A DNA stretch of 48,308 bases. Source: a virus. The stretch covers positions 1 through 48,308 of the IMG/VR virus record IMGVR_UViG_3300030107_002730. One strand, 5' to 3'. The position numbers and the translations under genes were made by a program. The notes under the pieces are model-generated. The model had not been told where the DNA came from. It saw only the letters and a program-made list of their open reading frames with translations, and searched no databases. Positions 10,932 through 21,700 of the stretch are shown here, piece by piece (the first letter of the stretch is position 1; each line of letters begins with the position of its first letter).

Positions 10932-11164
10932 ATGTTGTAAATAAAATATTAGATATAGCAAAAGAAGGGCATGATAAGATAGCATTAAAGCAATATATTG
11001 TTAAATTAGAGCGCAAAATTGTCGATTTAACGAGCGAAAATGAAAAACTAAGGATAAGGGTAGGGTTATTAGAAAATCCTGAATTTGAGCCATATCCTGA
11101 TGGTTTGGATATAGAACAAAAGCGTTTAAACGACTTGGAGGATAGTAATGATACAGGTATTTGA
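10928..11164 (+). CDS. Coiled-coil small protein
   Basis: 78 residues. IVKLERKIVDLTSENEKLRI (about 25-44) has heptad leucines typical of a coiled coil, followed by an acidic tail. It overlaps the HNH gene by four bases (ATGA). A GTTTAAAC copy encodes part of QKRLNDLE. Function unknown. Confidence 0.65.
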   Translation: MNVVNKILDIAKEGHDKIALKQYIVKLERKIVDLTSENEKLRIRVGLLENPEFEPYPDGLDIEQKRLNDLEDSNDTGI

Positions 11165-11228
11165 GTGGATAAGTGTGGCTATTGTAGTATTGATGGTAGT
11201 AGAATTAATAAATAGTGTAAGAGATTAA
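11148..11228 (+). CDS. 26-residue membrane microprotein
   Basis: MIQVFEWISVAIVVLMVVEL followed by INSVRD: a single hydrophobic helix. ATG has GGAGG seven bases upstream and overlaps the preceding gene in another frame. Too short to assign, but the start signal is good. Confidence 0.5.
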   Translation: MIQVFEWISVAIVVLMVVELINSVRD

Positions 11229-11305
11229 TTGAGAATATGTAAAATAATGTTAGTTTTATTTATTTAATGTTCTATAAATTATTTAATAACAAAGGAGATA
11301 ATAAT

Positions 11306-11479
11306 ATGAGATACGTAGGCAACTATAAAAAAGATACAACGAGCTTTCTATTGCGAGAAATCCCTGTGGATATGTGGAGAAAGTTTAAGATTAAATCATT
11401 GGAGAACGAACGTGAGAATCTTCAAGATGCACTACTTACTTTAATTGACAGCTATGTCAATGAGAACAGTGCGAGATAG
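11306..11479 (+). CDS. Ribbon-helix-helix type regulator (putative)
   Basis: 57 residues from ATG 11306, chosen over ATG 11267 because AAAGGAG lies just upstream. The FLLREIPVDMWRKFKIKSLE strand-helix segment, then NLQDALLTLIDSYV, matches the ribbon-helix-helix pattern of Arc/CopG-type proteins. These dimers bind short palindromes through the N-terminal strand, often in arrays, which makes this a natural candidate to bind GTTTAAAC. It is the first gene of the recombination set, after an 80-base gap with promoter-like sequence. Confidence 0.65.
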   Translation: MRYVGNYKKDTTSFLLREIPVDMWRKFKIKSLENERENLQDALLTLIDSYVNENSAR

Positions 11480-11480
11480 T

Positions 11481-12314
11481 ATGAGAAACTCTGACCCAGC
11501 AGGTATCAATGAAATCTATGATTCGTTCATTCAAAAAAGAAATGATGCGAATACAGAGGAGAGATACGAAGGTAATGAGAATTGGTTTAATGCAAGTAGC
11601 ACAGGATTGTGTGTACGGAGGGTTTATTTTCAATCTGTTGAACAGGCAGAGAAAACTGACCTCCCAAATACAACTTCAAAGAGATTGATGAGATTAGGAA
11701 CGATTGTTCATAATGATATTCAAGAATCTTTGGTGCAGTATAATACTAATAGTAATAATACTAATAGTAATATACTAAAGAAGAAAAAGAAACAAGATAT
11801 ACTTGTAAAGAAAAAGAAAGTTAAATTTTTTGTAGAACAAGAAATCCAAATCAAAGAACTTAACGTAAGAGGATTTTATGATGCTTTAGCAGAGGTAAAG
11901 GTTGATGATAAGGTGTATTACTATCTTTATGATTTTAAGACTATGGCTTCATATCCTTGGAAGTTGAAGTTTGGACGTGATGCTAAGAAAGAACAGCTAT
12001 CACATCAAGAGCTTCAGTTAGGAACTTATGGATACGCTATACAGGAGAAGTATGGTAAGCTTAGTGGCATGTACTTGATGTATTACAACAAAGATACATC
12101 GGTCGTTAAGAGTATTACCGTTCCACTCACGATGGTAAGTAAAGCGTATGCATATTGGGTAAATGCAAAAAAAGAGATAGAGAGAGGGTTACCTGATTTT
12201 CGGATAGGAACTTCGCCTGCTAAGGAGTGGGCATGTAACTACTGTCCGTTTAAACAGCGTTGTAATCCTCCTAACTTCATAACAAAACAAAATAGGAGAA
12301 GCTATGCCCGTTAA
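11481..12314 (+). CDS. Cas4/RecB-type PD-(D/E)XK nuclease
   Basis: 277 residues if started at ATG 11481; ATG 11445 is an alternative. Four cysteines (C44 in TGLCVRRVYF; C252, C255 and C261 in CNYCPFKQRC) fit an iron-sulfur cluster of the Cas4/AddB kind. The active site is D134 (GFYDAL) with D151 and K153 (YLYDFKT), plus QLGTYGYA downstream. It is likely an exonuclease that makes single-stranded DNA for the annealing protein encoded next. Residues 86-115 are a low-complexity Asn/Thr/Ser/Lys insertion. The start overlaps the regulator's stop region closely, so translation is probably coupled. Confidence 0.83.
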   Translation: MRNSDPAGINEIYDSFIQKRNDANTEERYEGNENWFNASSTGLCVRRVYFQSVEQAEKTDLPNTTSKRLMRLGTIVHNDIQESLVQYNTNSNNTNSNILKKKKKQDILVKKKKVKFFVEQEIQIKELNVRGFYDALAEVKVDDKVYYYLYDFKTMASYPWKLKFGRDAKKEQLSHQELQLGTYGYAIQEKYGKLSGMYLMYYNKDTSVVKSITVPLTMVSKAYAYWVNAKKEIERGLPDFRIGTSPAKEWACNYCPFKQRCNPPNFITKQNRRSYAR

Positions 12315-12930
12315 AAATGCAAATCCTCAATACGATGGAAAGCCAAAACCAAGGATAAATACTTTCCAAGAGTTAGAGAGGGTTGATGTTACAGAACATA
12401 TAGAAAAAAAAGGTAAGTTCAACTACTTGAGTTGGACGTTCGCAGTACGAGAGTTAAAGAGGAAATACCCTGATGCAACATGGGAAGTCCATGAGTATCA
12501 AGACAGAGATGGTATGGTACAACCATACATGCATACTGATTGTGGATACTTTGTCAAAACTACAGTAAATGTAAAGGGAATATCTATGTCCCAAATACAT
12601 CCTGTGTTAGACAACTACAATAAGTCTGTTACCCAACCAAATGCGTTTCAAATCAACACTAGCATACAAAGATGTCTTACAAAGGCTATTGCACTACATG
12701 GCTTAGGATTACATATCTTTGCTGGTGAGGACTTACCACCATCAACGCCACTAACAGCAGAAGAGAGAGCTGATATAATTGGTGTGCTAGAAACTCATGG
12801 TGCTGATAAGAAGATGTACGGAAGGATAATGGAATCAATGGATAACGGAACTATAAATCATGAGAACTTCTTAGAGATGGGAAGACAATTAGAAGATAAA
12901 CTAAAAACAATAAAAAAGGAGAAAAAATAA
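12304..12930 (+). CDS. Sak3-type single-strand annealing protein (DUF1071)
   Basis: 208 residues. VTEHIEKKGKFNYLSWTFAV, then LKRKYPDATWEVHE, then AFQINTSIQRCLTKAIALHG is the DUF1071 signature, a RecT/Erf-superfamily annealing protein seen in phages as Sak3. It should anneal single strands during phage recombination. It sits between the nuclease and a candidate SSB in overlapping frames, the standard two-component recombination layout. Ribosome site AGGAGAAG. Confidence 0.85.
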   Translation: MPVKNANPQYDGKPKPRINTFQELERVDVTEHIEKKGKFNYLSWTFAVRELKRKYPDATWEVHEYQDRDGMVQPYMHTDCGYFVKTTVNVKGISMSQIHPVLDNYNKSVTQPNAFQINTSIQRCLTKAIALHGLGLHIFAGEDLPPSTPLTAEERADIIGVLETHGADKKMYGRIMESMDNGTINHENFLEMGRQLEDKLKTIKKEKK

Positions 12931-13553
12931 TGAGTAATATAGACGACTTACTTGCTGATGATAAAAAAATACTTTCAGCAGACAAAAAGAAGTATAATTC
13001 AGATGAGGAGTATTTTCCTATGGTTGCAGGTGAATACCTCGGATACATAGTTGAACCTAGAATGGTAGAGCGTGAGTTTAAGATGCAAGGTAAGAAGGTA
13101 AAAGCCACAATATTCAACTATAAAGTACGGATAGGTGAAGAAAATGGAATAAATACTTATACTATTCCATCACTGAGTGGCCAAAATAGGACCGTAAAGG
13201 GCGATTATTACGCAGATAAGGTTGTACAGGCTAAAGGAGTGTTCAAATACCATGAACCTGCCCAGAATGATGAATTTGAGGCGTATAATGATGGAAATAA
13301 GTCATACGTGATGTTTTGCGAGACTATGGGGTTTGAAGGTGAAACAGTTGAAGGTGAAGTAGGTGGGAAAAAAGTAGTTGTTAATAACTTGCCTGAGTTT
13401 CAACCTGAAGAGCTTTACAATAAGCCTGTAGTAGCTGTTGTCGGTCCAGGTAAGCCATGGTTTAACAGTAAAGGGGAAAAATGCAAATCATGGGAAGTGA
13501 AGTTTGTAAAAAAATGGAAAAAAGCAACTAAATCAGAGGAGTTACCATTTTGA
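12930..13553 (+). CDS. Single-stranded DNA-binding protein (probable)
   Basis: 207 residues. The body looks beta-rich (GEYLGYIVEPRMVEREF, later AVVGPGKPWFNSKG), and the C-terminus SEELPF mimics the acidic-Pro-Phe tail by which bacterial SSB recruits partner proteins. It lies directly after the annealing protein with a one-base overlap. Coating single strands is the likely role. It is not a clear OB-fold match by eye, so the call rests on tail and context. Confidence 0.65.
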   Translation: MSNIDDLLADDKKILSADKKKYNSDEEYFPMVAGEYLGYIVEPRMVEREFKMQGKKVKATIFNYKVRIGEENGINTYTIPSLSGQNRTVKGDYYADKVVQAKGVFKYHEPAQNDEFEAYNDGNKSYVMFCETMGFEGETVEGEVGGKKVVVNNLPEFQPEELYNKPVVAVVGPGKPWFNSKGEKCKSWEVKFVKKWKKATKSEELPF

Positions 13554-13684
13554 TAAAAGTAGGAAAAACAAAGTCAAGAATGATACGAATAGCAAGAGGT
13601 GTATTTGGTATTAAGCCAAAGAGATTGTCGAGGATATTTAATATATCTCTTGCAACTGTGTATAGACACTTAGACAAAGATTAA
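13550..13684 (+). CDS. Small helix-turn-helix-like protein, TTG start
   Basis: 44 residues if started at TTG 13550, which overlaps the SSB stop (TTGA) and has GAGGAG nine bases upstream; ATG 13580 would give 34. KRLSRIFNISLATVYRHLDK at the C-terminus reads as a helix-turn-helix. It may be a small regulator. The stop codon is the first three bases of the structured element 13682-13827. Confidence 0.5.
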   Translation: MIKVGKTKSRMIRIARGVFGIKPKRLSRIFNISLATVYRHLDKD

Positions 13685-13827
13685 GAGTAGCAATATATCA
13701 TAGCAATAGCCAAGGAGCTTTTAACAGAGCTATTGAAACATACAAGAGACAATTAGCTGGCTGGAAGTTGCAGCTCAACGAGGGGATAATAAAGCCTTGA
13801 AAAAATAAAAACTCCAAGCTACTCTTA
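13682..13827 (+). ncRNA. Structured RNA element, 4-stem
   Basis: A perfect 10-bp outer stem (TAAGAGTAGC 13682-13691 with GCTACTCTTA 13818-13827) encloses 126 bases. Inside are CAATAGC/GCTATTG (13704-13710, 13729-13735), AGCTG/CAGCT (13755-13759, 13771-13775) and CGAGG/CCTTG (13779-13783, 13795-13799, one G-U pair). This gives a multibranch shape like a riboswitch or a discrete small RNA. The ribosome site of the next gene starts 16 bases after the outer stem. There is no open frame across it and no known family is recognised. Confidence 0.6.
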
Positions 13828-13851
13828 CTAACAAACAAAAAAAGGAGAAAA

Positions 13852-14244
13852 ATGCCTCTAAATACTGATTTATCTCACGGAAATTGGGATATTGACCTCG
13901 ACTTCGGGAAAGTTGGAGAACAAGCCTTAGTAGATTTATTAGAAAGTGATGGCTCTATTGAAGTAAAAACCGAAAGAGATATATGGAAGACAACAGGGAA
14001 TATAGCAATAGAAATACGATACTATGGAAACCCATCAGGTATTTCTACAACAGAAGCAAAAACGTGGATTCATCTATTGTCTTATGAAGGTAATATCGAA
14101 GGTGGTTTTATACTTAAAGTATCTGAGCTTAAAGAAAAGATACGTAGGCTGTTTAAACGGAATGAGGCAAAGACCGTAATGGGTGGTGATAACAATGCAT
14201 CTGAATTAGTATTGCTACCCATACGAGAAATGTTTTTCATTTAA
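13852..14244 (+). CDS. PD-(D/E)XK-like nuclease, copy 1
   Basis: 130 residues. LDFGKVGEQALVDLL, then IEVKTERDIWKTTGNIAIE and GISTTEAKTWIH form a nuclease-like core. E23, D33 and the E37-x-K39 pair fit a PD-(D/E)XK active site. It is paralogous to 18349-18738. It is preceded by the structured RNA 13682-13827 and an AAAGGAG ribosome site. It may be a resolving or restriction-like nuclease in recombination; the family call is from pattern only. A GTTTAAAC copy lies in its codons (RLFKRNE). Confidence 0.68.
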   Translation: MPLNTDLSHGNWDIDLDFGKVGEQALVDLLESDGSIEVKTERDIWKTTGNIAIEIRYYGNPSGISTTEAKTWIHLLSYEGNIEGGFILKVSELKEKIRRLFKRNEAKTVMGGDNNASELVLLPIREMFFI

Positions 14245-14260
14245 TTTAAGGGGGTAAAAA

Positions 14261-14347
14261 ATGTTAGGAATGGTGATTATATTAGGGTTATTATTAGCAC
14301 TACTGGTATGTGTGGTATACGCAGAAGATAATGATAACAACGAATGA
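14261..14347 (+). CDS. 28-residue membrane microprotein
   Basis: MLGMVIILGLLLALLVCVVY then AEDNDNNE: a leucine-rich helix with an acidic tail. A strong AGGGGG ribosome site precedes ATG. It overlaps the next gene, another membrane-type product. Confidence 0.58.
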   Translation: MLGMVIILGLLLALLVCVVYAEDNDNNE

Positions 14348-14645
14348 TATGCTAGCTTTATTTTTTATTGCTTTTGTTGTTATACCAATAACAGTAGAAA
14401 CACACAATTGCATGCACCCAAACCCAGAAGCTCAAGGGGCAGTATGTGATTGGAAATCAAAGACATGGCATAAGAAATTTGACTTAGAGACTTTAGAGTA
14501 TTACTATGTTTTAGAGGGAACAAGTGATACGGATAATTTCGTTGAGAGGCAGGTAAGGAAAAGGTATTGGAAGGAGAGAGATGAAAAAAACAACCTTGAC
14601 AAAGATGTACCCAAGAGAGAGTACATACAGAAAAGAGGGGAGTAA
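14331..14645 (+). CDS. Membrane-anchored or secreted small protein
   Basis: 104 residues from ATG 14331 (ATG 14310 also possible). An N-terminal hydrophobic stretch (MLALFFIAFVVIPITV) is followed by a soluble, charged domain with two cysteines (NCMHP, AVCDW). It could be an anchored or exported factor; superinfection exclusion is possible but unproven. Confidence 0.6.
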   Translation: MITTNDMLALFFIAFVVIPITVETHNCMHPNPEAQGAVCDWKSKTWHKKFDLETLEYYYVLEGTSDTDNFVERQVRKRYWKERDEKNNLDKDVPKREYIQKRGE

Positions 14646-14799
14646 AAGATTCCTTATTGACAAATATGGTAAATTGCAATACGGAGAGATAGTACAAAGA
14701 AGTGCTGAAGAAGTATCAAATAACAAGAAGTGTTGGTGGGTGTATAAGTATATTCTTAACTACAGGCCTATCAATTGGGCAAAAAGAAGAGATTATTAA
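14581..14799 (+). CDS. Small basic protein, unknown
   Basis: 72 residues, lysine- and tyrosine-rich (CWWVYKYILNYRPINWAKRR near the end). The start ATG 14581 overlaps the preceding gene by 65 bases and has AAGGAG very close; ATG 14605 may be used instead. Not recognised. Confidence 0.5.
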   Translation: MKKTTLTKMYPRESTYRKEGSKRFLIDKYGKLQYGEIVQRSAEEVSNNKKCWWVYKYILNYRPINWAKRRDY

Positions 14800-14811
14800 G
14801 CAAGGAGGTAG

Positions 14812-15048
14812 ATGGAAAAGAAAGATGTAAATAGAAGAATTAGGGGACTCATCAGGTCGATTGGCAATAACACCTCCATTTCATCCTCCCAACCATCATC
14901 TATGGGTCCCAAAAATATTAAGAATGTAGAGAAGAGATTAAAAGAGTATCAGATAAAAAAGTATGGAAAGTGTATCGCATGTGGCGAACCTATCCAACCA
15001 ACTAACTGTCACTTTCAATGTTCAAGTTGTGGATACGCTGAGAACTGA
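14812..15048 (+). CDS. Small zinc-ribbon protein
   Basis: 78 residues. The basic N-terminal part (RRIRGLIRSIG) is followed by a C-terminal ribbon CIACGEP ... CHFQCSSCGYAEN, with cysteines about 56, 59, 70 and 73. It likely binds nucleic acid. Ribosome site AAGGAGG is tightly spaced to ATG. Function unknown. Confidence 0.68.
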   Translation: MEKKDVNRRIRGLIRSIGNNTSISSSQPSSMGPKNIKNVEKRLKEYQIKKYGKCIACGEPIQPTNCHFQCSSCGYAEN

Positions 15049-15088
15049 CACGAAACACCAACCTATCAGGTAGATAAGGATAAATAAA

Positions 15089-15310
15089 ATGAAGTTTGTA
15101 GAAAAGTATGAATTTGACAAAAAGGACCCTGATAAGTGGGGCTATCAAAGAAAGACTATAACAAAAATAAAAACACATTTAGATAACATCCCTGGATTAA
15201 AGGAAAAAGATTTATGTCAGATGACATACCTTCTTGATGATATGGAGGAAGAAATAATACAATGTGCGATGAAAAATTATTTAAACAACAAGGAGAAAGT
15301 AAATGGGTAG
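15089..15310 (+). CDS. Small helical protein, unknown
   Basis: 73 residues (MKFVEKYEFDKKDPDKWGYQ...), acidic and helical toward the C-terminus. The ribosome site is weak (AAGGATAAATA). It overlaps the next gene by eight bases. Not recognised. Confidence 0.58.
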   Translation: MKFVEKYEFDKKDPDKWGYQRKTITKIKTHLDNIPGLKEKDLCQMTYLLDDMEEEIIQCAMKNYLNNKEKVNG

Positions 15311-15539
15311 AGCAATAGACATGGAAAAAGACATTGATACGCTAAAACGTCAAATGTCTGAAGTTAAAAGTAAAGTAGGCGAACTAAAGACTACACTAAG
15401 CGAGATATTAGATGCAGCTTCATCGAAGAAGAATGTAGATTTAGTAGAGGAAACAAAAAAGGAGACTAAGGTTGAAACAAAAAAGAAAAAAACCAACAAT
15501 GACTCAAGTGGAAAACGTAGTGGGAAATCTTCTGATTGA
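15303..15539 (+). CDS. Coiled-coil protein with Lys-rich tail
   Basis: 78 residues. IDTLKRQMSEVKSKVGELKT (about 11-30) is a coiled coil, followed by a disordered Lys/Glu/Thr/Ser tail. Ribosome site AAGGAGAAAG. The 3' end overlaps the next gene in another frame. Likely a scaffold or partner protein in the replication operon. Confidence 0.6.
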   Translation: MGRAIDMEKDIDTLKRQMSEVKSKVGELKTTLSEILDAASSKKNVDLVEETKKETKVETKKKKTNNDSSGKRSGKSSD

Positions 15540-15690
15540 TATGCGTAATGTTGTAGAGTCGCTACAAGTATTAGACGTAGCGTTCTCAAACTACGTAGAG
15601 ATGAAGAAAGAAACAGAAAAGTTAAGAGAGTACATAGAAAACAAAGCTAAGGAACTTAAAGATGAGAGAAATACAGACGGAGCTGGCTAG
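15472..15690 (+). CDS. Small helical protein, probable TTG start
   Basis: 72 residues from TTG 15472, which has GGAG seven bases upstream; ATG 15499 is the alternative (63 residues). MRNVVESLQVLDVAFSNYVE and MKKETEKLREYIENKAKEL form long amphipathic helices. It overlaps both neighbours. Function unknown. Confidence 0.55.
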   Translation: MKQKRKKPTMTQVENVVGNLLIDMRNVVESLQVLDVAFSNYVEMKKETEKLREYIENKAKELKDERNTDGAG

Positions 15691-16036
15691 GGTTCACATA
15701 ACAGCCGATGGTAAACGGTTTCTTAGCGAACAAGATGCTATTGAGCATCAAGAAAATAAGACTAGAGCAAATGAGGAAAATGCCATGAAAGTCTCAGAAA
15801 TGATAATGAGTGTGTTTAAACGCAATGGGTGGGGAGTATACCACATTACGAAACCAATACAATCATTAAAAGTACAAAACGATGCATCATTGTTTAAAGT
15901 TAATGATGTGTCAAATGAAGAGATAGAAGTAGCCTTTCAAGAATCTCTTACGGATACGGTATCAGATTTAAACGAAAGGATAGGAACATGTCAGACAGAT
16001 ACGCAGACAGATTCGCAACAGAAGGAGAACTATTAG
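15662..16036 (+). CDS. Early protein, unknown
   Basis: 124 residues. The N-terminal half contains HITADGKRFLSEQDAIEHQE, resembling short phage proteins that begin by reading a sequence position. The C-terminus is Thr/Gln-rich. A GTTTAAAC copy encodes SVFKRNG. It overlaps both neighbours (29 and 49 bases). Not recognised. Confidence 0.6.
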   Translation: MREIQTELARVHITADGKRFLSEQDAIEHQENKTRANEENAMKVSEMIMSVFKRNGWGVYHITKPIQSLKVQNDASLFKVNDVSNEEIEVAFQESLTDTVSDLNERIGTCQTDTQTDSQQKENY

Positions 16037-16224
16037 ACCACATCATAGACTTCTATGAAGGACAGATAGATAAGTTCTTACGAAGAATGGGTGGAACAAC
16101 AGAGCATGGCACAACCATAACACCAGCTATGCTTAGTGTAACGGTCAAAAGGTATACTCATCTGTTAGAGAAACGAGACGAAGAAGCTAAAGTATTACTT
16201 GAAGCAGAAGGCTTTTTAGTCTAA
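15988..16224 (+). CDS. Small helical protein, unknown
   Basis: 78 residues. LLDHIIDFYEGQIDKFLRRM and VKRYTHLLEKRDEEAKVLLE are long helices. Start ATG 15988 follows AAAGGATAGGAAC. The 49-base overlap with the upstream gene is in another frame. It may be a helicase partner by position, with no sequence proof. Confidence 0.6.
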   Translation: MSDRYADRFATEGELLDHIIDFYEGQIDKFLRRMGGTTEHGTTITPAMLSVTVKRYTHLLEKRDEEAKVLLEAEGFLV

Positions 16225-16250
16225 AAATAAACAACAAATAATAAAACTTG

Positions 16251-16262
16251 TCCCGAAAGGGA
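16251..16262 (+). promoter_or_regulatory. GNRA hairpin before the helicase operon
   Basis: TCCC-GAAA-GGGA forms a 4-bp stem with a GAAA tetraloop just ahead of the purine-rich ribosome site AAGGGGAGGTG. It could modulate translation of the next two genes. The stem is short, so weight is low. Confidence 0.3.
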
Positions 16263-16282
16263 GAAGGGGAGGTGTCTAAAAA

Positions 16283-16576
16283 ATGGACCAAATAAAAAAT
16301 GCATTTATGGATATAATTGCAGAAGTAGATAGTGAAATACTTATAGCTGATGGGTTTGATGATGCTATAATAGGATATGTTGAACGATTAGGAGAGAGTG
16401 GGTATCAGACCTATGCGCTATATGACAAGGAAAAGGTAATCAGTATGCTTCAAGATGATATGACAAGAGAAGAGGCAGTTGAATACTTTGAATATAATAT
16501 ATTAGGTGCATACATGGGTAAATACACTCCAGCCTTTGCAACGGTATTAAGTGTGGAGGAGGACAAATGTACTTAG
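16283..16576 (+). CDS. Acidic protein upstream of helicase, unknown
   Basis: 97 residues, strongly acidic (DIIAEVDSEILIADGFDDAI, then VISMLQDDMTREEAVEYFEY). No family is recognised. It overlaps the helicase start by ten bases and is probably translated with it. A role as helicase partner or DNA mimic is only a guess. Confidence 0.68.
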   Translation: MDQIKNAFMDIIAEVDSEILIADGFDDAIIGYVERLGESGYQTYALYDKEKVISMLQDDMTREEAVEYFEYNILGAYMGKYTPAFATVLSVEEDKCT

Positions 16577-17907
16577 ATGGCCCAACGGATATTGAGTTAG
16601 AACAAACCGTATTGGGTACCATTATTGAGTACCCAGACACATACGATGAAGCAGCACCCTACCTAGCAGAGCCAGCAGTCCTATATGATTCTCAGTCAAG
16701 AGGAACGTGGAAGTTATTAACTGAGATGAGACATAAGAACGAGCCAATAGATTTAACGTCTGTATGTGCTTTCCTTTCGGTTGACGACACTATGGCTGGG
16801 ATAACTAAATCATATATAGCTGAAATATCATCTCAAGCGAGTGTTTCTGAGAATATCGTACCTTATGCAAAGAAATTATATCATAAATTCTTATTAAGGA
16901 AGATAGTCAAGAATGCAGAGAAGATACTAGAAACAGCAACATCAAACAGCCCTAATGCTTTCGAGGCTATTATAGATGCGCATAGCACTCTTGGAAGGCT
17001 TATAGATGTATCTCCAGGCGAAGAGTTTAGTATTGAGAATCAGATGATTGATGCTATAAATATTATTACGAGCAAAGAAGATAGGCTGATAAAGACAGGA
17101 TACCATCATATAGATAAGTTTGCTGGTGGTTTGACGAGAGGAGAGCTCACAGTTGTAGGTGGTAGGCCAGGCCATGGTAAATCTACAATGCTTCTTAATA
17201 TGCTATCACGTGTGATACATAGTGGTAAGAAGGTAGTATTGTTCAATAGAGAGCTTACGAACTCAGAGGTCTTAAAGAAGATAATAGCGCTCGAATCTGG
17301 CAAGCTATCTTATGGGTTGATACGAAAAGGTATATATGACAAGGGTTCACTTAAGGAACTTGAAAACGTGAAAGAAACTATCACTAAGCTCTATAGTGAA
17401 GACAAATTCAGGATGTTTGATTCTATACAGGACTTTTCAAGAGCCGCAACCGAAATAAAGAAATTCAAGCCTGATATTGTATTTGATGATTATATACAAC
17501 TTATACATATTACAGGTAAAGAAGAACAACGAAGATTACAGCTTGAGAAGTTAGTACATCAATATAAATGGATAGCAAAAGAGAACAATTGTGCAGTTGT
17601 TCTAGCATCCCAACTAAACCGTGCGATTGAGACTCGAACTCATCAACGCCCACAACTATCAGACCTAGCAGAGAGTGGAGCTATGGAACAAGCAGCTGAG
17701 AATGTGTTCTTTGTGTTTTATAAATACAAAGTATCAGGCAATCCAGCAGAGAAGAATGAAATATCACTCGTTGCATCTAAAGTGCGATACGGAGAGTCAG
17801 GAGAATCTCAACTATGGTATGATGGAGACAAGGCAAAGATATATGATGGTGAGGACGAGTTTATAGACGCACAGAAAGTAGAGTTAGTAGATGACCTCCC
17901 ATTTTAG
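16567..17907 (+). CDS. dnaB: DnaB-type replicative helicase
   Basis: 446 residues. The N-terminal DnaB domain (about 8-110) starts IELEQTVLGTIIEYPDTYDE. The RecA-fold motor has Walker A GGRPGHGKST (198-207), FNRE (E229), Walker B DIVFDDYIQLI (303-313), SQLNRAIE (348-355) and SDLAESGAMEQ (365-375). It should unwind DNA at the phage fork; no phage primase or polymerase was found, so host partners are implied. The last residues, VDDLPF, copy an SSB C-terminal tip. ATG has GGAGGAGG upstream. A one-position overlap region with the RuvC gene suggests coupling. Confidence 0.92.
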   Translation: MYLDGPTDIELEQTVLGTIIEYPDTYDEAAPYLAEPAVLYDSQSRGTWKLLTEMRHKNEPIDLTSVCAFLSVDDTMAGITKSYIAEISSQASVSENIVPYAKKLYHKFLLRKIVKNAEKILETATSNSPNAFEAIIDAHSTLGRLIDVSPGEEFSIENQMIDAINIITSKEDRLIKTGYHHIDKFAGGLTRGELTVVGGRPGHGKSTMLLNMLSRVIHSGKKVVLFNRELTNSEVLKKIIALESGKLSYGLIRKGIYDKGSLKELENVKETITKLYSEDKFRMFDSIQDFSRAATEIKKFKPDIVFDDYIQLIHITGKEEQRRLQLEKLVHQYKWIAKENNCAVVLASQLNRAIETRTHQRPQLSDLAESGAMEQAAENVFFVFYKYKVSGNPAEKNEISLVASKVRYGESGESQLWYDGDKAKIYDGEDEFIDAQKVELVDDLPF

Positions 17908-18358
17908 ATATATAGGAATAGACCCAGGTAAATCTGGTGGAATAACAGTCGTAGATAAAGACTTTATAAAGACACTAAAGTGTCCTGATAATACGATTGA
18001 TATGGCGACATTGTTTGAGATAATGCTAAAAGAAAAGGGAGACTACAAGCCTGGTAAGGTTATAGTAGGCATAGAGAAGGTATGGTCATTCCCTAGCGAT
18101 GGACGTAGCACAGCATTTACGTTTGGAGTGAATTATGGACAGTGGCAGGGTATTATTGCCTCGCATGAGATTGAGCCTATATTTGTTACTCCCAAAGAAT
18201 GGCAGTCATACTTCAATGTCCCTAAAAAGCTTAAAAAGGTACAGCGTAAGAATTGGATTAAAGATAAGGCCAAAGAGCTATATCCTGGACTTAAAGTAAC
18301 ACTTGCAACATCAGACGCAATCCTCATAGCTAAATACCTACAACAGACATGTTCATAG
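17891..18358 (+). CDS. RuvC-type Holliday junction resolvase
   Basis: 155 residues, RNase H fold. Acidic residues fit the active site: D11 in IGIDPGKSGG, E62 in VGIEKV, and D142 in ATSDAILIA. PKEWQSYF (101-108) is typical of phage RuvC-like enzymes. It should cut four-way junctions before packaging. It overlaps the helicase by 17 bases and the following nuclease-like gene by ten. Confidence 0.87.
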   Translation: MTSHFRYIGIDPGKSGGITVVDKDFIKTLKCPDNTIDMATLFEIMLKEKGDYKPGKVIVGIEKVWSFPSDGRSTAFTFGVNYGQWQGIIASHEIEPIFVTPKEWQSYFNVPKKLKKVQRKNWIKDKAKELYPGLKVTLATSDAILIAKYLQQTCS

Positions 18359-18738
18359 ACAATTTATGCAAGACATTCGACCTTGATGTAGATTTTGATT
18401 GGATAGGCGAGAATGCAGTAAAGGAGCTGTTTAAACGTGATGGTAAGGTAGAAGTAAGGACTGAGAATGATACATGGAAAGAGGAAGAGTGTATTAAGAT
18501 AGAACTTCGGTACAATGGGAGTCCTGCTGGATTAGCTTACACTGAGGCAAAGACGTGGATACATGTATTAATGTTAGATGGGATGGTTGTTGGAGGTTAC
18601 ATATTTCCTGTCGACAAATTAAAAGAGGCTATAAAGAAGCTTCATAAAGAGGAAAAAGCAACGATGGTTTTAGGCGGTAAGAATAATGCCTATCAGCTGA
18701 TTAAGGTCCCACTCTCAGAGTTGTGGAGAGTATTTTAA
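18349..18738 (+). CDS. PD-(D/E)XK-like protein, copy 2 with ExR
   Basis: 129 residues, clearly paralogous to 13852-14244: DVDFDWIGENAV, then VEVRTENDTWK, TEAKTWIHVL and GGKNNAYQL. The catalytic Lys of the ExK pair in copy 1 is Arg here (E35-V-R37), so activity may be lost or changed. It is the last early gene and its stop overlaps the stop of the convergent late block. A GTTTAAAC copy encodes ELFKRDG. Confidence 0.68.
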   Translation: MFIDNLCKTFDLDVDFDWIGENAVKELFKRDGKVEVRTENDTWKEEECIKIELRYNGSPAGLAYTEAKTWIHVLMLDGMVVGGYIFPVDKLKEAIKKLHKEEKATMVLGGKNNAYQLIKVPLSELWRVF

Positions 18739-21700
18739 AGCTTTACCCTAAATAAATATCCATACATAACAGATTCTTGTGGAGCATACGAATCAACTTT
18801 TTTCAAAAGATTTCTTTTTCTAAACTCATATGTCTTCAAAGACCTTGTTAATAGCGCTTGAGATTCTTTGTCTTTGCCAAGCCATTTTTTAAACTGACCT
18901 AGTTCTGTTTGGTTCATATGTGCCCCATGACCCTCATTATTTAAGGCAACAGGCTTTAGGTTGCTTATAACTCCTGTTATAAATCTTCGTGTTTCTCGGT
19001 CTATCCTTTTTGAGCCAGATATAGTATTTGGGTTGTATGCTCTGCTGTGCATTAGCTCTGTAGCTATTGTATTATATGTTGCCCAATAAGCTCTAGCAAA
19101 CTCATGTTCACTACCAAAATAAAATGCATCTCTCATAGCGTCATACATTCTTTTATATTTACTAGGCTTTCCACCACCTGTGCCTGTAGGTCTGCCTGTA
19201 TCATTCTGCCATTTACGTACAAGAGTTTGTATCTTTTTTGTGTCTGAGTGCAGGCCAATCTTGTCTCTTGATTTATAATCAAAACCTTTTCTTGCTTGGC
19301 CATACACAACAACAGTATTTTTAGCAAAGTCATCTACTGCTTTAGCCCCTGACTTGGTTCCCTTTAAATATGACTGCATATTGCTCCAAGCATTACTTGA
19401 ATAACGTACAATAATCGGCTCTGTAATAGGATTAGGCATTCCCTCGCCTGACTTATACGGATTAATTAATTCTGTAAACATTCCTAGCCACTCCGCCCTA
19501 TGCAGGTTAGCCATAGCATTATCTAAGAAGTCATTAGGTTTCGCAGGTTTCTGCAGCCCAAAGAAGTTCTCATATATTGAAAACAAAAGACTGCCACCTA
19601 ACCCAGCTGTAGCAGTAGTTGCAATAAAAGGCATAATATTACCATGCGTAGCCATTGGCTTAACAATATTTTTATATGTATCAAAAGTAATAGATGTAGC
19701 AATTCTTTGGAATAGCGTAAAAGGTTTTACATACTTACTTCCCATCCACGCTGGTAGCTGTGCTGCTGTAGTACCACCCTGTGTAGCGACATGTGAAAAG
19801 TGGTCAATCTTGTTATCTATTCTAAAGTATCTTTCCATCGCATCTGGCGTACTAAAATCCTTTGTAGTCCTAAGAAAGTTAATTTCACCCTCTGTTAAAT
19901 TATATATATCTCTCATAGCACGCTCTGCTCTGCTTTTTGATAGACCTTTTAATGCATGAAGCTTCTCACCTCTTAAAGATTTTTTTATACCATTAAAATA
20001 TAGTCTTCCAGCATACATACTAGCAAGCCTGTTTACATTCTCAGTCTGTGTCATAAAATTCCATTTAAAGAATTTACGCATTGAAAACTTACCTAAAAGC
20101 TTCTCACTTTCAAGCTCTAGTGTTTTAGCTCCGTACTCTAATATACCTTTCTTTCTTGCTTCATGCCATGCATCACGAGAAAACACTTTAGAGTATCCAC
20201 GTAGAGTATTCCATAACCCATAATGCCCAATCATTCGAGTGCCAAGAATTAAGTTCTTTAATCCTGAGAGCGGTGAAGAAAGGCCAGCCGCTGCAGAAAC
20301 ATTAGTTATAGAGCTGCCTAATTTTAAGTATCCACGGTTCAATACATCGTTGGTACTGTAATCTAGCCCAATAGTACGTTCTACAGCCTGTTTTGCATAA
20401 AGCCCAAATTCTTGATTTGCGGAGATTTTTTTAAGAAGGTCACCTTTAGTCTGCCCTATGTTAAATCTCTTCCCTAATTCGGTAAATTCGGGGAAAATCT
20501 TAAGAGTTGCTAGATACTTTGATGTATTGGCCACATAAGGCTCTACTGTACCGTTAAATTTTGTCTCATATGTACGTGTTTTTTTACCATCAATTGTAAG
20601 AAACTCTGGCAGCAATGGCCCCCTTTTTAACAAGTATGGATTTCTTACTTGCGATATAGGGTCTGTAAAATAGTTATACATAAAATGTTCTACTCTTCTC
20701 TCTATCCTGCCTATTTCATCCTGCGAAAGCTTATCAACGCCTTGCTTTTTAAGTTCCCTCTCAACCTGCTCATTAACCATTTTATTAACAACTTCTCTTA
20801 CTTCTGGAATATCAAGAGAAAAGTTCTCTGCAAATTTCTTTGTTATTCTTCGTGAAAAATAATTCTCTATAAATTTATTGTTAAACTCTTTTTGAAAATC
20901 CGCAAACTCTTTCTTAGTGAATTTTTTATGCTTCATTACTTCTTTAGCTATTGATTGCCAGTAAAAGTTCATTAAAGATTTATACTCTTTGATGCCTTGA
21001 GAAACATTGGAGTTTTTATCTTTAGAGAGCTCTATGAATCTCTTTTCACGAGCTGTTAATTCTCCAGACTTTATTAGAGCATCAGCTCTCTCTTTGTCAA
21101 CTAGATATAACGAGTCTGCATATTTTCCTAATTTTTTCCTTATTTTGTAAATTGCAGCATTGCCTGCGCCTCTATATACTGTGTGCTCTATAGCTTCATG
21201 CTCTAATATCTTGTTAGCAAGCTTAGGGGAAATCTTTTTTATAACATGGTAAACTGGGACCAAGTACCTTCCAAGTATAGGAAGTTTTAATTTCTTATCT
21301 TTATTAGCAATAATCATATCTGTAGCGTTTTGATAAGAAGTATTCCTCTCATGTCTTATAACAGAAGCATACTCGTTAATAGACCGAACGTCTTTAACTG
21401 ATGATATATCACCATCTTTTGCTCCAAAATAGTCTTTCGCAATGCTAGCTTTCTGCTCTGGGCTTAAAAGAGACTCAGCTTCTGCAGTTTTTGCCTTGTA
21501 AACAGCCATTTTCCTATCTGGAGACATATCTTTATACTTTTCAGATTCGATAACAAAGTCTCTCCATGACTCTAGCTCTGCTTTGCTTAACTTTTGTATG
21601 TTTTTTGTTCCAAAGAATTGTCTTCTGATAGAATCTTTATTGCCTTTTGTTACCCAGTTACTTGCTCTCTCTGCGTCACGAACTTCGCTATGCAATTGAG

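Follow-up and report, generated by a model that had tools for sequence, protein, structure and literature searches.

The window analysed here, the 48,308 nucleotides of the viral record IMGVR_UViG_3300030107_002730, carries a predicted structured RNA between a helix-turn-helix (HTH) mini-gene and a gene of phrog_13596 (Table 1). A previous reading made from the sequence alone had described a perfect 10-bp outer stem around 126 bases, beginning at the stop codon of the mini-gene and ending 16 bases before a ribosome site, and all of this holds: the arms pair perfectly, the 5' arm begins on the TAA of the mini-gene, and GGAG at 13844-13847 lies 16 bases past the element and precedes an ATG at 13852. 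Its statement that no reading frame lies inside is right for the plus strand, which has no ORF of 40 aa there; for the minus strand a mechanical list has a 46-aa ORF at 13698-13838. Further internal stems are present, as had been described, but the supported ones, Pb, P1, P3 and P2, differ from those of the fold of minimum energy. The fold of the window element beats chance only moderately (-34.0 kcal/mol, z -2.52, with 4 of 200 shuffles equally good). A search of the window for perfect 10-bp inverted repeats spaced by 30-200 nt yields 15 hits, which fall on 12 separate sites, and since such repeats arise by chance elsewhere in it, the outer stem is not significant by itself; its significance comes from homologues. 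Compensatory changes in related phages, which the sequence-only reading had proposed to look for, were found as strong covariation. It had thus correctly pointed to a conserved structured RNA, but had overlooked the pseudoknot, which is the conserved part.

Table 1. Features at the locus (window coordinates, except for the class b examples, which are given by locus)
Feature	Position	Strand	Remarks
HTH mini-gene, 44 aa	13550-13684	+	followed on its 3' side by the RNA slot; Pfam HTH matches weak and under the cut-off
Whole structured RNA element	13682-13827	+	outer stem with compensatory change in 25/41 clusters; closest relative L414, 89% identical
Outer stem P0, 5' arm TAAGAGTAGC	13682-13691	+	starts on the HTH stop codon
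Stem Pb, CAAUAGC/GCUAUUG	13704-13735 (13704-13710/13729-13735)	+	AGUAUUC/GAAUACU at the same place in L414
P1 hairpin, AGCUG/CAGCU	13755-13775 (13755-13759/13771-13775)	+	pairs 2 and 3 kept in 51/52, pair 4 in 39, pair 5 in 20
Conserved loop GCUGNAAGUUG	13760-13770	+	carries P2 5' strand 13763-13769, A13765 unpaired
Insert hairpin P3, CGAGG/CCUUG, loop GGAUAAUAAAG (13784-13794)	13779-13799 (13779-13783/13795-13799)	+	loop kept, stems changed
Tail AAAAACUCC	13807-13815	+	P2 3' strand at 13810-13815
Outer stem P0, 3' arm GCTACTCTTA	13818-13827	+	perfect partner of the 5' arm
Downstream gene phrog_13596	13852-14244	+	unknown function in PHROG annotation; without Pfam match; the "nuclease" of the sequence-only reading
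Class b examples	L033:1322-1414; L129:2707-2807; L030:974-1084; L009:4841-4909		

Comparison of homologues gives good support to a real structured RNA with an H-type pseudoknot core at 13755-13815. In the topology as we read it, P1 closes an 11-nt loop, GCUGNAAGUUG, whose GN(A)AGUU pairs with the AACUN'C of a tail, AAAAACUN'C, to form P2, where N and N' are free bases; the window and a subset of relatives have in common CTG-GCTGGAAGTTG-CAG, followed by AAAAACTCC. The core pattern GGCTGNAAGTTGCWN{4,34}AAAAACTNC, in which N and N' are unconstrained, matched 59 loci in viral contigs and one in the window, and nothing in 100 shuffles. Among the 52 distinct sequences of these 60 matches, counted without any filter, N and N' form a Watson-Crick pair in 51 (GC 30, TA 12, AT 6, CG 3), as against a mean of 21.7 and a maximum of 32 in 1000 shuffles. 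The sole exception, L255, fails in both helices, and for that reason was left out of alignment A3 and of model R1. Pairing at the fifth pair of P1 is no better than chance. In an alignment of 51 cores, 31 of them distinct, the share of paired cells is 98.4% (80.9% in shuffles), and both sides are changed in 47 cells (13.9 in shuffles); scores based on the number of pairs or of pair types are no higher than in shuffles. The core pattern itself prescribes the remaining five P2 pairs, which therefore carry no weight as covariation there. A freer pattern, which leaves the 3' side of the outermost P2 pair unconstrained, gave 65 distinct matches among the 80 listed of 86 stretches, and in the 56 of this set with P1 and N-N' intact the outermost pair is G-C in 44, G.U in 12 and never anything else; the occurrence of G.U without mismatch fits pairing in RNA of the sense strand. 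Model R1, in which P2 is not encoded, found L398, where the two outer P2 pairs are U-A and C-G, the outermost pair being doubly changed. The matches listed from a first loose scan included many that were due to chance: among 101 distinct matches in all loci considered, 55 have a P1 of at least 3 bp, 51 of them with a Watson-Crick N-N', and the 46 that lack a P1 of 3 bp include 9 with N-N'. The core of L312 (1184-1214, minus strand) shares sequence with the 3' end of an ORF judged RusA-like by eye, so that the core can be partly coding.

P1, P3, Pb and the outer stem all show compensatory change among homologues. The closest relative, L414, keeps the outer stem, has Pb replaced, and differs from the window in gene order. 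The loop of P3 recurs in L083, L404, L406, L410, L411, L414, L415, L419 and L420, with the stem swapped beneath it (CUUGG/CCAAG in L083, for example). The longer-insert pattern gave 19 loci with 12 members; L405, L407, L412, L413, L416, L417 and L421, with a P1 of 1 bp, were dropped as chance. An outer stem, its sequence differing between clusters, closes the element in 25 of the 41 non-redundant clusters, as against a mean of 2.58 and a maximum of 6 in 200 mismatched pairings. The other 16 clusters have no outer stem closing around the core, and a few seem to be core alone; some members show a closed stem standing apart, ahead of the core, and some a further one behind it. Upstream of the core, L256 and L326 share the same middle domain under different outer stems and with different P2 pairs, and these modules look as if recombining. 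A TCGTCGG motif recurs shortly before P1 in a subgroup (L404, L411, L415, L428, L431 and L441).

With the phrog_13596 gene as query, 80 viral loci were found, many with the common order exonuclease, Sak, SSB, HTH mini-gene, DnaB, RuvC and phrog_13596; the SSB gene had no match in a first search and was recognised through an alignment of relatives. The window has two phrog_13596 copies (13852-14244 and 18349-18738), and relatives usually only one, after RuvC. Relatives of the HTH mini-gene lie at 79 distinct loci (E 0.05 or better), and a closed stem, its sequence varying by clade, often stands directly 3' of the HTH gene: a strict Watson-Crick closed stem follows 29 of the 74 HTH genes, compared with 7 of the 686 remaining ORF ends at the same loci. 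Since the gene after it varies by clade, the RNA goes with the slot and not with the downstream gene of the window. A reading as the leader of a nuclease gene was dropped, as among relatives the closed-stem slot after the HTH mini-gene persists even where a different gene comes next, and the position "before a nuclease gene" given by the sequence-only reading is incidental. The 51 downstream ORFs of 74 members in 57 clusters belong to 28 families, and the 46 upstream ORFs to 29, and in terms of gene content these loci show a pseudoknot RNA independent of any one neighbour gene. The core is carried on the sense strand of replication genes whose order varies: it follows SSB and precedes DnaB in some loci, and in others comes behind DnaB and an HNH-like gene or behind a replication-O-like gene (HNH-like and replication-O-like being labels assigned by eye). 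Relatives of DnaB are on the same strand as the core in 23 of 23 loci, those of SSB in 13 of 13, and those of Sak in 12 of 12.

In whole virus records, model R1 at E 0.01 matches 39 of 50, with one strong copy each, a copy number which is a lower bound as records may be fragments; one of the 39 has a second match of 15.9 bits, and the window has one core. Among 50 relatives with other elements the same threshold gave 4 matches, only that of L398 exceeding 18 bits. In bacterial genome contigs the strict pattern gave 8 matches, all judged from their sequence to be chance; L360 scores 24 bits, but two of its four P1 pairs fail. Searches by blastn with three queries gave no credible match in phage isolate records. 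Homologues of phrog_13596 in phage records come mostly from Pelagibacter phages (27 of 36 records), which suggests marine alphaproteobacteria as hosts. No partner protein emerged when the occurrence of 51 families was compared between 15 genomes with the pseudoknot and 16 without it: the family with the best positive association, present in 11 of 15 against 2 of 16 (p 0.001, uncorrected), vanished with an HMM (12 of 15 against 10 of 16), and the strongest association is negative (1 of 15 against 11 of 16, p 0.0006). Neither promoter-like sites above chance nor a terminator were found near the element, and a separate transcript is for that reason not supported.

By Rfam 15 the pseudoknot RNA is a new family, predicted to be of a known type, the phage structured RNA with an H-type pseudoknot. 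At the family cut-offs, the covariance models of Rfam 15, ribozymes included, gave no match in the window and 16 further loci, in agreement with the sequence-only reading, which could name no family, and permissive scans (E up to 10) of three members gave only chance-level matches, that in the window being to one microRNA family. No description of this RNA was found in the literature at the level of search listings and the openings of abstracts. A published catalogue of candidate structured RNAs of phages, by Fremin and Kyrpides, may contain it. The preQ1-I riboswitch, a leader of queuosine genes, is a small hairpin whose loop pairs with a tail, with an A-rich linker before the tail strand. 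The RNA described here shares this topology, as the covariation of P1 and P2 indicates, but its conserved loop is a different one, its linker may carry a hairpin, and there is no single downstream family, the 28 found being unrelated and mostly unannotated; the preQ1-I covariance model gave no match in three members at E up to 10. The pseudoknot of T4 gene 32, likewise H-type, lies 5' of a phage SSB gene, whereas the core here, though also near an SSB gene, lies 3' of it in one lineage and elsewhere in others. Type III antitoxin RNAs are tandem repeats of a pseudoknot unit before a toxin gene, unlike the single core of the window, where 13400-14300 contains no tandem array. The manA and wcaG RNAs, in so far as the cited account describes them, are structured RNAs from marine sequences and phages (PMC2864571), and differ in that the present RNA has no Rfam match and lies among replication genes.

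Taken together, the homologues show a conserved H-type pseudoknot core on the sense strand of the early replication region, usually sealed by an outer stem, in one strong copy per record and with no fixed neighbour. We tentatively favour, with close to an even chance of its being right, an autonomous phage RNA that is transcribed with the early operon and has a genome-level role through a bound factor. The pseudoknot RNA would be transcribed within the early polycistronic mRNA of the replication region, would fold while emerging, and may act autonomously, either excised or still within the transcript, by offering its invariant pseudoknot to a factor of host or phage origin; its role would be at the level of the genome rather than in control of the next gene. 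For this speak the covariation of P1 and P2, the single strong copy, the sense strand, the varied neighbours, the outer stem in 25 of 41 clusters and the exclusivity towards a second RNA class (class b, below); against it speak the 16 of 41 clusters without a closing outer stem, the missing partner protein, the failure to find a promoter or terminator near the element, the possibly fragmentary records behind the copy number, and the starts that often follow close after the element.

These starts bear on a cis-acting leader, either riboswitch or protein-binding operator, that would control translation of the next gene, which we consider unlikely. Its compact pseudoknot, invariant loop and A-rich linker are much like those of small riboswitches, and a start with a ribosome site lies within 203 nt in 36 of the 40 members with an outer stem, mostly at 15-55 nt, the window's ribosome site being 16 bases off. 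However, the downstream families are many, and of the 24 members that lack an outer stem, 15 have the next such start 105-210 nt away, one has it at 33, and 8 have none within 220. The CUCC of P2, which could cover a ribosome site, is not conserved, as N' varies. Of the possibilities put forward by the sequence-only reading, a leader of the downstream gene is thus weakened, while a stable RNA and a protein- or ligand-binding domain are still candidates.

A nascent-RNA antiterminator that modifies RNA polymerase, by analogy with the putRNA of HK022, seems distinctly unlikely. It would also be a structured RNA in a phage early transcript, on the sense strand and independent of the next gene, one copy of which would serve one operon. 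In the account of HK022 as far as it is drawn on here, however, two put sites, with two stem-loops, lie just behind the early promoters (PMC9378689), while the present pseudoknot occurs in one strong copy (39 of 39 positive records) in mid-operon, after several genes. Moreover, the region 11000-19000 of the window contains one terminator-like site, on the opposite strand, which is fewer than in shuffles. There is a slim chance that the element belongs to a replication origin, as a primer RNA or folded single strand, with classes that swap as origin types do. One copy per genome, the replication module and mutually exclusive classes would suit such a role, but around the element there are no iteron-like tandem repeats, and GC skew in the window tracks gene direction with no switch at 13.7 kb. 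An equally slender prospect is a processing or stability element of the early mRNA, acting as an RNase site or a roadblock; the tandem closed stems of some loci and the preference of closed stems for HTH genes over other ORF ends would agree with this, but a general stabiliser need be neither single copy nor the keeper of an invariant loop sequence. A chance fold without function, to which the common inverted repeats and modest fold z of the window might point, is refuted by covariation across homologues and hardly deserves consideration.

The element gives phages that lack a credible match among the isolate records searched a further, structurally well-supported RNA family, with base pairs defined exactly enough to be disrupted and repaired. 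Should it prove to be single-copy and independent of its neighbours, these phages would rely on RNA, and not on proteins alone, for early takeover or replication. Its apparent replacement by a second RNA class raises the question of which role two unrelated RNAs share.

This second class, class b, combines a closing stem with a hairpin whose loop is GUGAG-like. It usually follows the same HTH mini-gene, and would occupy in related phages the niche of the pseudoknot RNA without being homologous to it. In alignment A7, which holds 21 of the 26 class b elements picked, five near-identical ones having been omitted by hand, 14 of 19 predicted pairs have both sides changed; as the closing stem was among the features by which the elements were chosen, the outer-stem pairs are not independent evidence, whereas the inner hairpin is. 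Model R2 of class b was run on 62 of 101 records: the 30 genomes with the pseudoknot had no match, and 16 of the remaining 32 had a single copy each, the genomes having been chosen partly by RNA class and R2 being liable to miss divergent copies. The hypergeometric probability of this non-overlap is 1.1e-6 in the 62 genomes and 4.6e-4 in the SSB lineage, with kinship ignored. In G053 and G056, class b lies between RuvC and the phrog_13596 gene. It is conceivable, although we think it rather unlikely, that each member of a large group of uncultivated phages carries in the replication region a single RNA out of several that are interchangeable, structurally unrelated and devoted to the same essential genome-level job, among them the pseudoknot RNA, class b and perhaps a class c. 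If true, this would be a phage RNA module with non-homologous replacement, as in plasmid origin-control RNAs.

In L257, L282 and L340 a class-b-like hairpin with GCGTGAGCGC, inside a stem that starts on a stop codon, lies directly before the pseudoknot, and R2 stayed below threshold in the records of L257 and L282. Class c is a short hairpin of the GGGAGGGC type just behind the HTH stop codon in L020, L010 and L012, whose closing stem can pair in two ways because CTCCC occurs twice on the 3' side.
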